In this document: positions 13,685-27,880 of the stretch, one piece after another
How the letters are laid out: every line of letters starts with the position of its first letter
How positions within the stretch are numbered: the stretch's first letter is position 1
NCBI RefSeq assembly: GCF_009791395.1
Contig: NZ_WSZK01000017.1
Span: 62,001-126,000, forward strand
Length of the DNA stretch: 64,000 nt
Direction: 5' to 3'
DNA from: Halomarina oriensis
GTDB taxonomy: Archaea > Halobacteriota > Halobacteria > Halobacteriales > Haloarculaceae
Made by a program: the position numbers and the translations under genes
The notes under the pieces: model-generated
What the model was told of the DNA's origin: nothing
The model's database searches: none
The model's input: the letters and a program-made list of their open reading frames with translations, nothing else

Positions 13685-13833
13685 GCCGGCCGCTCGGACG
13701 GATCGCGTCTCTATCGAGACGGTGAGTCGCTACTCCCGCCGAGCACGCCGCGACATCCTGTGACGGCCCCGGTACGACGGCATCGGCGGCCCGCGTCGGT
13801 CATCCTTATGTCCCGTCGCCGCGCGGACGGCGT

Positions 13834-15450
13834 ATGACCGGTCCAGCGGACCTGGTGCTCACGAACGCCGAGGTCCACACGCTCGACTCGCCCGCCGAGA
13901 CCCACGAGGCGCTGGCCGTCCGCGACGGCGAGATCGTCCGTCTCGGCGACGCCTACGAGGTCGACTTCCTCGTCGGCGCGGCCACCGACGTGCTCGACTG
14001 CGAGGGTCGCGTCGTCCTGCCGGGGTTCGTCGACGCCCACACCCACCTCCCGATGGTCGGGCGACGACTCGTCCACGCCGACCTCTCGGCGGCCGACTCG
14101 CCCGCCGACGCGACCGACCTGCTCCGCGAGCGAGCGGCCGAGACCGAAGACGACGCGGCCGTCGACGGGACGGCCGAGTGGGTCCAGGGGTTCGGCTACG
14201 ACGAGAGCACGTGGACCGATTCGCGGTATCTGACCCGCGTGGACCTCGACGCGGTGAGCGAGACCCGACCCGTCGTCGCGTTCCGCGAGGACATGCACAC
14301 CGCGGGGCTGAACAGCGTCGCGCTGGACCGCCTCGCCGCCGACATGCCCACGGGAGACGTCCGGCACGAGGGTGGCGACCCGACCGGTGTCGTCGTCGAG
14401 GAGGCCGTCGACGCCGTCTGGGAGGCCGTCGACCCCGGCGTCGAGGAGACACGCGAGTTGGTCCGGGCGGCCCGTGACTTCGCGCACGCTCACGGCGTCA
14501 CCGGCGTCCACGACATGGTCCGGAACAGCGAGGCCCCGCGAGTGTACCGCGAACTCGACGCTGCCGACGAACTCGACCTGCGAGTGCGTATCAACTACTG
14601 GACCGACCACCTCGACTCGCTCGTGGACCTCGGTGCGCGGACGAACCACGGGAGCGAGTTCGTCCGGGTCGGCGGGGTCAAGAGCTTCACCGACGGGAGT
14701 TTCGGCGGTCGGACGGCGAAGCTCTCCGAACCGTACGCCGACGCGCCGGCCGGTGGCGGGGCAGGAGACGGCGACTCCGACCGGACCGACGCCGACGCCA
14801 CCGGTCAGTGGGTCGTCACGCCCGAAGCCCTGACCGAGTACGTCGAACGCGCCGACGCCGCCGGCCTCCAGTTCACCGCCCACGCCATCGGCGACGAGGC
14901 CATCGAGGCCGTCCTCGACGCCTACGCCGGCGTCTCGGCCCCCGCCGAGTTACGTCACCGGGTCGAACACGCCGAACTGCTGACGGACGAACTCGTCTCC
15001 CGGTTCGCCGAACTGGGTGTCGTCGCGTCGGTCCAGCCGAACTTCCTCAAGTGGGCGCGGCCGGGCGGTCTCTACGACACCCGCCTCGGCGAGGACCGGG
15101 CACGCTCGACGAACCGCTACCGTGACCTGCTCGACGCCGGCGTCCGACTGGCGTTCGGGAGCGACTGCATGCCACTCGGCCCGCTGTTCGGCGTCCAGCA
15201 GGCCGTCACCGCGCCTGCCGACGGCCAGCGGCTCACCGTCACCGAGGCGCTCCGGGCGTACACCAGCGGCGCGGCCTACGCCGGGTTCGACGAGGACCGT
15301 CTGGGGACCGTGAGAGTCGGGAAACGGGCGGACCTCGTCGTCCTTGAGGAGTCACCGTGGACGGTGGCTCCCGACAGTATCGGTGACGTCGAGGTGACCC
15401 ACACCGTCGTCGATGGCGACGTCGTCTTCCGACGAACGGACGACGCGTAG
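13834..15450 (+). CDS. Amidohydrolase of the YtcJ-like group
   Basis: 538 residues with the layout of metal-dependent exo-enzymes in the amidohydrolase superfamily. An N-terminal beta-sandwich part (DLVLTNAEVHTLD) is followed by PGFVDAHTHLPM with the HxH metal ligands, a long middle domain, GGVKSFTDGSFGGRTA with the lysine at the position that bridges or supports the metals, HAIGDEAIEAVLDAY with a ligand His, HRVEHAELL with another His, and FGSDCMPLGP with the catalytic Asp. An acidic Gly/Asp insertion (about residues 305-325) is likely a halophilic loop. Substrate unknown. It stands alone. Confidence 0.88.
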   Translation: MTGPADLVLTNAEVHTLDSPAETHEALAVRDGEIVRLGDAYEVDFLVGAATDVLDCEGRVVLPGFVDAHTHLPMVGRRLVHADLSAADSPADATDLLRERAAETEDDAAVDGTAEWVQGFGYDESTWTDSRYLTRVDLDAVSETRPVVAFREDMHTAGLNSVALDRLAADMPTGDVRHEGGDPTGVVVEEAVDAVWEAVDPGVEETRELVRAARDFAHAHGVTGVHDMVRNSEAPRVYRELDAADELDLRVRINYWTDHLDSLVDLGARTNHGSEFVRVGGVKSFTDGSFGGRTAKLSEPYADAPAGGGAGDGDSDRTDADATGQWVVTPEALTEYVERADAAGLQFTAHAIGDEAIEAVLDAYAGVSAPAELRHRVEHAELLTDELVSRFAELGVVASVQPNFLKWARPGGLYDTRLGEDRARSTNRYRDLLDAGVRLAFGSDCMPLGPLFGVQQAVTAPADGQRLTVTEALRAYTSGAAYAGFDEDRLGTVRVGKRADLVVLEESPWTVAPDSIGDVEVTHTVVDGDVVFRRTDDA

Positions 15451-26269: not shown

Positions 26270-26562
26270 CGTCTGTCGTCACAGTGGCTGGACGGATTAA
26301 TTCACCGAGGGGAGAACGATATAGTGTCATTCACCACATCATTGCTAAACAGTGTCATGCGGAGGCCGCCGGTGGCTCGTTCGAGTTCCGAACGCGCTGT
26401 AGACCGACGAACCGATCTCTTTCGTGGGACTCTCCGCTCGCCGGACACGTCTTCTTCACCGACGCCTGACATACTGGTCGACGGTCGGTTCCGTCGGCCG
26501 TGGACCACGGCGTCTCGGGTGTGGCGACGACCTGGACCCGTCGCTGTATCGTGTGGATTCGA
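26270..26562. other. Non-coding stretch before the tRNA fragments
   Basis: Part of a 440-base gene-free region between the phosphoribosyltransferase-HAD gene and tRNA-Gly. It contains ordinary AT-richer promoter-like sequence (GGATTAATTCACC near 26290, GATATAGTGTC near 26320) probably serving the leftward gene. I found no convincing coding pattern: the open frames here are short and repetitive. Confidence 0.4.
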
Positions 26563-26592
26563 GAGAACTGTACCGACCGGGATTCGAACCAC
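26563..26592 (-). other. tRNA 3'-end fragment
   Basis: On the minus strand the sequence GGTTCGAATCCCGGTCGGTACA reads as a T-loop, 3' T-stem and acceptor end, followed by the same GTTCTC that follows tRNA-Gly 120 bases upstream on that strand. The 5' half of a tRNA is missing and the T-stem pairs poorly. It looks like a decayed or partial copy of a tRNA 3' end plus flank, as left by integration events at tRNA genes. Confidence 0.55.
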
Positions 26593-26627
26593 GGTCGCTC
26601 CACTCGCTGACGCTCGTTTCGCTCCCT

Positions 26628-26643
26628 GCTTCAAATCCCAGTG
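26628..26643 (+). other. Second tRNA-like fragment, opposite orientation
   Basis: The plus-strand sequence GCTTCAAATCCCAGTG matches the T-loop and 3' T-stem of the adjacent tRNA-Gly (TTCAAATCCCAG), but runs in the opposite direction. It has no other tRNA features. It may be a small inverted copy of the tRNA end. Confidence 0.4.
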
Positions 26644-26654
26644 TTGTCCACACA

Positions 26655-26706
26655 CCGATTTCGCGAGTTCGCGCAGAGCCGAGCCTCTGCGCGGTATCGA
26701 AATCGG
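26655..26706 (-). other. Strong stem-loop directly downstream of tRNA-Gly
   Basis: Two nested perfect inverted repeats: outer CCGATTTCG (26655-26663) with CGAAATCGG (26698-26706), inner GCGCAGAG (26671-26678) with CTCTGCGC (26685-26692). It begins five bases past the tRNA 3' end on the minus strand. It could end transcription, guide 3' processing of the tRNA precursor, or belong to a mobile-element end. No U tract follows, so an intrinsic terminator of the usual kind is not shown. Confidence 0.6.
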
Positions 26707-26711
26707 AGAAC

Positions 26712-26782
26712 TGCACTGACTGGGATTTGAACCCAGGTTGTGACCATGGCAAGGTCACGTGATACCACTACACTATCAGTGC
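26712..26782 (-). tRNA. tRNA-Gly (anticodon GCC)
   Basis: 71 bases, no intron and no encoded CCA. All arms fold: acceptor GCACTGA/TCAGTGC (7 perfect pairs), D-stem GTG/CAC around a nine-base loop with GG, anticodon stem TGACC/GGTCA with loop TTGCCAT and anticodon GCC, four-base variable region, T-stem CTGGG/CCCAG with loop TTCAAAT, and discriminator A. The GCC anticodon reads GGC and GGU glycine codons, the former very common in this sequence. Confidence 0.97.
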
Positions 26783-26922
26783 TCGTCTGCACCCGAATCT
26801 GGGAGAGGGTAAGATAAAAACCCACCGAAGTACCCCGCCCAGTGACCGCCTCTGTCATGAGACTCTCTCCCACCGAAAACGGTCGTGTGGGAGCTTCACA
26901 GGGCCGTAGAGAAACGCTACCC

Positions 26923-26983: not shown

Positions 26984-27880
26984 ATGACACGCACCGTACT
27001 CGTGCCGTCGTCGCTGGTTCGAGAGTCCCGTGACAAACGGGAGGCGACCCGAAAACTCGGGTACGTCGCCCGTGCGGCCACGGTCTTCCGAATCGACCGC
27101 CTGCTCGTCTTCCCGGACAGGGAAGGCGAGCGGCGTTGGGACGACGGGTTCGTTCGCACCGTGCTGGCCTACGCGGCCACACCTCCGTACCTCCGAAAGG
27201 AGGCGTGGGGACGGCGCGAGGAACTGGAGTGCGTCGGCGTGCTGCCGCCGCTCCGCGCTGTCGCGCAGACCGGCTCCGAATCTGACGGTTCGGGGTCGTT
27301 AAGACAAGGAATCGTGACCGAGGTCGGACCTGACGGGCGCGTTCGGGTCAATTGCGGACTGCAACACCCAGCCTCCCTCCTCGTGCCGCCGGGAATGGCG
27401 GTCGAAGAGGGGGAACGCGTGACCATCAGGGTCTCTTCGCGACGGCCGCTCCGGGCCCGCATCGTCGACGAGTCCCCGCCGGGACTCTCGGTGTGGGCCG
27501 AGGAGCTGGAGACGGCACTCTCCCGGGACGACGCCGGCGTTCGAATCGCCGCGTCGCGCCACGGGGAGGAACTCGACGCCACACGGCTGGGCGAACTCGC
27601 CCCGCGTGTGCGCGATGGGTTCACCGCCGTGTTCGGCTCGCCGGAACGCGGCCTCCCGGAGATTCTTGGTGTCCACCCGCCGCGGGTGGACCCACGCGAC
27701 GAGCAGTGGTCGCCCGAGAGCGACCACGAGTCCCCGGGGGACGCCCCCGACGGGACGCGGTCTCACGAACCGGCAGCCCGGTTCGACCTCTGGTTGAACA
27801 CGGTTCCGCACCAGGGCAGCGAGGTGGTCCGAACGGAGGAGGCTCTGTTCGCCACGCTCGCCTGCCTCAACCTGAGGTAA
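26984..27880 (+). CDS. Putative SPOUT RNA methyltransferase (DUF171 type)
   Basis: 298 residues. The order is an N-terminal SPOUT half (MTRTVLVPSSLVRESRDKRE, VARAATVFRIDRLLVFPD, AATPPYLRKEAWGRREELE), an inserted OB-like beta-barrel (about 100-170: GIVTEVGPDGRVRVNCGLQ) and a C-terminal SPOUT half (AVFGSPERGLPEILG, LNTVPHQGSEVVRTEEALF, ATLACLNLR) that ties the trefoil knot and binds S-adenosylmethionine. Related proteins modify ribosomal RNA. The same gene precedes rpl3 in many archaea, and rpl3 follows five bases after its stop. The start ATG is at 26984, since 33 upstream codons are unlike the family and begin before the TATA element. Confidence 0.9.
   Translation: MTRTVLVPSSLVRESRDKREATRKLGYVARAATVFRIDRLLVFPDREGERRWDDGFVRTVLAYAATPPYLRKEAWGRREELECVGVLPPLRAVAQTGSESDGSGSLRQGIVTEVGPDGRVRVNCGLQHPASLLVPPGMAVEEGERVTIRVSSRRPLRARIVDESPPGLSVWAEELETALSRDDAGVRIAASRHGEELDATRLGELAPRVRDGFTAVFGSPERGLPEILGVHPPRVDPRDEQWSPESDHESPGDAPDGTRSHEPAARFDLWLNTVPHQGSEVVRTEEALFATLACLNLR

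Follow-up and report, generated by a model that had tools for sequence, protein, structure and literature searches.

A two-hairpin unit behind an archaeal tRNA-Gly gene and its haloarchaeal family of short non-coding cassettes at tRNA 3' ends

The DNA that follows the tRNA-Gly(GCC) gene in the window (the whole stretch of 64,000 nucleotides from Halomarina oriensis that was analysed) is one two-hairpin unit of about 140 bases, a member of a haloarchaea-wide family of cassettes. The units of this family have a common anatomy, position and exact borders; they are polarised behind the tRNA, present or absent as whole units, shuffled by module, locked to one strand and restricted to haloarchaea. 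The explanation that fits best, and to which we give about an even chance, is that short non-coding cassettes were inserted stepwise at tRNA 3' ends, newest first.

The features of the window locus are listed in Table 1; as the tRNA gene is on the minus strand, 'after the tRNA' means towards lower coordinates. The nested hairpin that a preliminary description of this DNA had placed five bases past the tRNA is present (H1). Its outer stem is a perfect 9 bp as described (CCGATTTCG/CGAAATCGG), the inner stem has 9 bp rather than the described 8 (CGCGCAGAG/CTCTGCGCG) with a loop of 6 nt, and the bases between the two stems (ATAC/AACTCG) are unpaired. A linker of 12 nt separates H1 from the inverted arm, which is, in agreement with the preliminary description, an exact reverse complement of 13 nt of the T-loop and the 3' half of the T-stem; arm, core and distal copy together make up the second hairpin (H2). 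The separate tRNA 3' end, followed by the same GTTCTC as the intact gene, was likewise found where it had been reported: it is identical to T54-N73 of the adjacent tRNA-Gly(GCC) at 16 of 20 positions and, with its flank, forms a direct repeat (D1) of 33 nt and 82% identity. The shared GTTCTC, put forward as evidence of an insertion, is weak evidence alone: haloarchaeal tRNAs are often followed by a pyrimidine-rich, CTTCT-like sequence, whether or not they have a copy.

Table 1. Coordinates of the unit behind tRNA-Gly(GCC) in the window
Feature	Positions	Strand	Basis or remark
Intact tRNA-Gly(GCC)	26712-26782	minus	ARAGORN; Rfam RF00005, 66.2 bits
3' segment T54-N73 of tRNA-Gly(GCC)	26712-26731	minus	
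Spacer from the tRNA-Gly(GCC) 3' end to H1	26711-26707	minus	5 bases, GTTCT
Hairpin H1 (outer stem, internal loop, inner stem, loop)	26655-26706	minus	folds
Inverted arm ACTGGGATTTGAA	26630-26642	minus	13/13 against 26719-26731
H2 core, type A (GCAGGGAGCGA...GAGCGACCGTGG), 41 nt	26589-26629	minus	predicted tandem G.A pairs on the tRNA-sense strand
Distal copy of the tRNA-Gly 3' end TTCGAATCCCGGTCGGTACA, direct repeat of T54-N73	26569-26588	minus	
GTTCTC flank beyond the distal copy	26563-26568	minus	same as 26706-26711 beside the intact tRNA

The whole trailer stretch of the window folds with z = -3.4, and the paired palindromic pattern of T-halves has one match in the window and none in 100 shuffles. 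The core matches, at 93% identity, the core of another unit of this genome, which stands behind tRNA-Lys(CTT) (C4:127449-127504). The distal copy TTCGAATCCCGGTCGGTACA fits a different tRNA-Gly, one of a relative (genome G007, C15:693103), at 19 of 20 positions, better than the adjacent tRNA-Gly(GCC), which hints at an exchange between glycine tRNAs. Behind tRNA-Gly(GCC) of G007 itself H1 is kept, and a recognisable distal copy was not found.

Judged by the ORFs of the window, the locus lies upstream of a cluster of ribosomal-protein genes. At 27330-27429 on the plus strand, inside the ORF that precedes the L3/L4 ribosomal genes, there is an Rfam match to RF03135 (L4-Archaeoglobi ribosomal protein leader) with 66 bits at a cut-off of 34.5; this is odd for the leader of another archaeal class, the ORF being coding, and a congener has the match too (L071:5865-5964, 70 bits). 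An ARAGORN call of a tRNA with incomplete anticodon (27487-27560, plus strand) is probably false, as the position is coding and Rfam finds no tRNA there at gathering score.

Relatives of the unit were searched with the pattern GGRTTYGAA-N(20-50)-TTCRAAYCC, and the reversed pattern served as control. The pattern is found in 50 of 59 related genomes (0 to 16 per genome) and its reversed control in none; in a phylum-wide sample it is found in 22 of the 24 genomes of the same order (1 to 22 copies), and the 124 other genomes have none or one. A pattern specific for the core matched at least 120 places over 84,980 species, and the 80 matches listed are all haloarchaeal, except one labelled only 'Euryarchaeota archaeon'; by these pattern matches, the family appears confined to haloarchaea. 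Among 60 loci, nearly all chosen by pattern regardless of tRNAs and a few by BLAST to the window, there are 71 elements; 68 of them follow a tRNA 3' end at a distance of at most 300 nt, and not one is on the 5' side of a tRNA. The three others (L086:5001-5052, L105:5001-5057 and L107:5001-5057) have their nearest tRNA at 456 nt (L105) or 1335 nt (L107) or have none within 5 kb (L086); they may be set apart from their tRNA by a larger insert. Units are about 100-150 bp long, with a median of about 100 nt before the copy. At gathering score, Rfam identified only tRNA and the ribosomal-protein leader in the window and four other array loci.

The borders of the copied block were taken from an unselected survey of all tRNAs of genome G000 and most tRNAs of G007, 82 in all: for 38 of them the tRNA's own 3' end is copied at up to 700 nt downstream, and for none is it copied upstream. 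In these 38 units, identity between tRNA and copy ranges from 0.74 to 1.00 over T54-N73 (mostly above 0.87); outside the block it is 0.87 at G53, 0.66 at position 52 and about 0.5 over the first three bases past N73, followed by background. The copied block is T54-N73, with sharp borders. The inverted arm fits its own tRNA better than other tRNAs: mismatches in the 38 units sum to 96, with a minimum of 112 in 10,000 permutations (p<1e-4, orthologous pairs across the two genomes being not fully independent), and unusual T-arms are matched as well, among them those of tRNA-Tyr (TTCAAATCG / CGATTTGA) and tRNA-His. This test covers the unselected genomes only; arm agreement in loci selected by pattern was left aside and is not counted as evidence, because the pattern favours it.

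Arrays appear to grow at the tRNA. Where at least two copies are present (n=63), the tRNA-proximal copy is the one closer to the tRNA in 32 arrays, the worse one in 6 and equal in 25 (p=2.4e-5). Orthologous loci of G000 and G007 differ by whole units: behind tRNA-Pro(TGG), G007 has an extra tRNA-proximal unit of 135 bp, followed by a unit with 88% identity to the first unit of G000, and behind tRNA-His(GTG), G000 has a unit of 108 bp, with sequence beyond it that resembles what directly follows the tRNA in G007. At these two loci the site is thus occupied in one genome and empty in the other; the proximal unit makes the difference at Leu(TAA), Ser(TGA) and Ser(GGA) as well, Tyr is ambiguous, and the polarised cases are few, about four. 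The preliminary description had named the same arrangement in all relatives, without any insertion, as the outcome that would speak against it; the arrangement differs between close relatives.

Modules are exchanged in Haloferax. The upstream flanks of tRNA-Val(TAC) are mostly 91-98% identical there and the arrays entirely different: H1 modules (a-e) and H2 cores (1-4) recur in new combinations, with the strings c-3,e-4; a-1; b-1,a-2; b-4; a-2; b-1; a-1,b-3; and d-1,b-3 (letters assigned by reading of the sequences). Two whole units searched in 12 Haloferax genomes had strong H1 matches at the tRNA-Val(TAC) locus only, and one of the two has an H2 core that turns up at many positions in these genomes. 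Among 653 pairs of units that stand at different tRNAs of one genome, the core is shared at 75% or more in 76 and H1 in 6; one identical core stands behind tRNA-Val(CAC) with the arm AGATTTGAA and behind tRNA-Arg(TCT) with the arm GGATTCGAA. H1 stays at its own tRNA, and H2 cores recur at other loci.

A cassette consists of H1, an inverted half of the T-arm, a short core locked to one strand and a T54-N73 copy of the host tRNA. In the mechanism that we propose, recombination specific for the site G53|T54, where the T-loop begins on its 5' side, would insert this cassette, presumably by means of a recombinase, restore the tRNA and move the older 3' end outwards, by analogy with integrases at tRNA attB sites and with integron arrays that grow from attI. 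A single cut at G53|T54 would account for both the T54-N73 repeat and the exchange of cores between unchanged local arms. Since it is the tRNA-sense strand that folds better, a folded single strand (a displaced DNA strand, or RNA) may be the substrate or the functional form, and template-switch correction between hairpin arms may have produced the first match of an arm to its tRNA. Several points count against insertion. At about 100 bp, a cassette would make a very small circle if the intermediate were double-stranded, and ordinary attP/attB integration leaves unexplained how an arm can match the local tRNA when the identical core is present elsewhere. Deletion between the 20-bp repeats would also result in clean presence or absence, and the gradient could stem in part from gene conversion, in which the tRNA gene corrects the copy closest to it. 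No recombinase gene was found linked to the units: the integrase search proposed in the preliminary description, done with the general Phage_integrase model (PF00589) that is not specific for intI, had 14 matches in the genome and none on the contig of the window or near its array. A Phage_integrase ORF about 740 bp downstream of a cassette-free tRNA-Leu (G000:C4:24084-25338) looks like part of an ordinary tRNA-integrated element. A more specific proposal, which we regard as doubtful, is a dedicated integron-like system of haloarchaea that uses the tRNA T-loop as primary site, acts on folded tRNA-sense single strands, carries nothing but structured non-coding hairpins and rewrites their arms for each host tRNA, by an undescribed recombinase or an RNA-templated process.

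The copied block, from the T-loop to the 3' end of the tRNA, has a form usual for attB sites, and the preliminary description had read the repeated 3' ends as what an integrated and lost element leaves behind. As a footprint of insertion this is borne out by the exact T54-N73 block, by the unit-sized presence or absence between species and by the arrays that grow at the tRNA, and the repeat is att-like. The 'lost element' is not supported: throughout the haloarchaea and behind many tRNA isotypes, a unit of 100-150 bp has a constant two-hairpin anatomy, such constancy would not result from proviruses deleted at random, and the unit itself appears to be the element. It is improbable that the source was a larger element, once integrated at tRNA-Gly and since deleted except for att-like repeats and an end piece, even though archaeal integrases prefer tRNA 3' ends (PMC8371274) and one contig in IMG/VR, the single one matched by the core-specific pattern, has a type-A unit beside a tRNA-Glu. 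Such an element would have to account for one two-hairpin unit, almost constant in length, that stands behind close to half of the tRNAs surveyed and is present in almost every haloarchaeon; moreover, BLAST with the window unit had no match in the phage collection (50,697 records) or the plasmid collection (72,556 records), the same ends were not found in any intact virus or plasmid of these records, and an unsystematic look met no large element with these ends. The IMG/VR contig (L182, IMGVR_UViG_3300000875_000004, 13744-13908) is classed as viral and has tRNA-Glu(TTC) followed by the cassette; it is either the host flank of a provirus or a virus that carries a cassette. A loose pattern in IMG/VR had suggested a viral attP, which proved to be an artefact: the matches are mostly bacterial-type tRNA-Ser genes (anticodon stem GGATTTCGAATCC, 47-49 bp), plus AT-rich chance matches. 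We consider it just as improbable that replication slippage or unequal crossing-over duplicated the tRNA 3' end and its trailer in tandem, followed by divergence. The 20-bp direct repeats would permit it, and a few arrays do have identical or nearly identical neighbours (tRNA-Val(TAC) of G003, 100%; L323, 100%; L354, 97%), but 54 of 65 neighbouring pairs are as different from each other as random units, and therefore tandem duplication is not the main source. Nor are the extra units of orthologous loci copies of their neighbour, and slippage would not yield inverted arms that match the tRNA.

The main rival to insertion, and a serious one although we think it on balance unlikely, is that the units are functional trailer RNA: co-transcribed hairpins that act in tRNA 3' maturation or termination or are released as small RNAs, with an inverted arm that sequesters the second tRNA 3' end and so prevents it from competing with the real one in folding. 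Strand-specific folding argues for this: in 31 of the 38 units the tRNA-sense strand is the better-folding one (mean z -2.4 versus -1.3 for the antisense strand), as opposed to 17 of 44 trailers without a copy (z -0.9). Of the type-A cores, 102 have the same orientation relative to the tRNA and one the opposite; the cores are predicted to pair via tandem G.A mismatches, which one strand only could form. The better fit of the inverted arm to its own tRNA points in the same direction, and so does H1 behind tRNA-Gly(GCC) of other species, where nearly all 14 examples have the fold despite completely different stems (judged on individual folds and without pair-count statistics, as the MAFFT alignment misplaced the outer stem). 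The hexaloop of long-type H1 is often close to TYTCRT (TTTCAT, TCTCGT) on a GC stem; it is common to trailers of tRNA-Gly(GCC), tRNA-Asp, tRNA-Ser and tRNA-Glu in several haloarchaea, and G007, which has lost the distal tRNA copy, retains it. Against a role as trailer RNA, a recognisable unit is absent behind over half of the tRNAs and differs between orthologs, so that the unit is dispensable; no Rfam family matches the units of the window or the four other array loci, and such a role alone leaves the exact T54-N73 copy, the age gradient and the module shuffling unexplained. Insertion and a function of the trailer RNA could both be true.

No description of the cassette family was found in the open-licence literature searched, the scope on which its novelty rests, and none of the known systems that we compared fits, as each fails at least one defining feature. 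The repeat units of rtT/tyrT each carry about 19 bp of the tRNA 3' end, and are not known to have an inverted arm. Like the cassettes, these E. coli repeats are units in a tRNA trailer, and their tRNA operons release rtT RNA (Bosl and Kersten 1991, cited in PMC4986893); they differ in being enterobacterial and in having similar tandem copies, whereas haloarchaeal neighbours are mostly unrelated, and the Rfam family of rtT had no match in the window or the four other array loci. The R box of attC sites has the consensus GTTRRRY; in the units shown here the border is, by inspection, GTTCRAA-like and departs from this consensus. Integrons, reported from nine archaeal phyla in a paper that does not mention Halobacteria (PMC9668308), resemble the cassettes in their polarised arrays, imperfect strand-locked hairpins (attC), module shuffling and G|TT border, but the cassette units of about 100-150 bp lack gene cassettes and have a tRNA as primary site.

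It is well established that att sites are repeated at tRNA 3' ends and that integration can occur in tandem (PMC8371274). Tyrosine-recombinase elements at tRNA attB sites share with the cassettes the targeting of tRNA 3' ends, the restored tRNA, tandem stacking and the direct repeat of the tRNA 3' part that bounds the insert (here T54-N73), but the cassettes, at about 100-150 bp, have no integrase or other genes, carry an inverted arm matched to the tRNA and occur at many isotypes per genome. The small mobile repeats (SMR-A) of Haloquadratum, about 110 bp long and aimed at IS605-type elements (PMC3119063), are likewise haloarchaeal and non-coding, with inverted repeats and enigmatic mobility; in contrast to the cassettes, they target IS605-type/PATE palindromes, keep their sequence (commonly >95%) and make no target duplication. 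Constant, target-independent terminal inverted repeats, typical for MITEs and SMRs, were not found in the cassettes, in which the arm follows the local tRNA and an identical core occurs with different arms. Haloferax 't-elements' for processing by tRNase Z and RNase P (PMC4946936) are also tRNA-like sequences in haloarchaeal transcripts, but cassettes hold T54-N73 only, without a 5' partner strand, and pair it with an inverted arm.

If stepwise insertion is true, past insertions are recorded in polarised form behind nearly half of the tRNA genes surveyed in the two genomes. The single-base-precise insertion of a non-coding piece of about 100 bp at a universal T-loop sequence becomes testable, and so does the origin of the match between the inverted arm and each local tRNA. 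The units would provide a fast-changing marker for strain typing and would account for tRNA 3'-end fragments of haloarchaea that resemble provirus scars. If the units act as RNA, there would be a large unstudied set of structured tRNA trailers in model species such as Haloferax.
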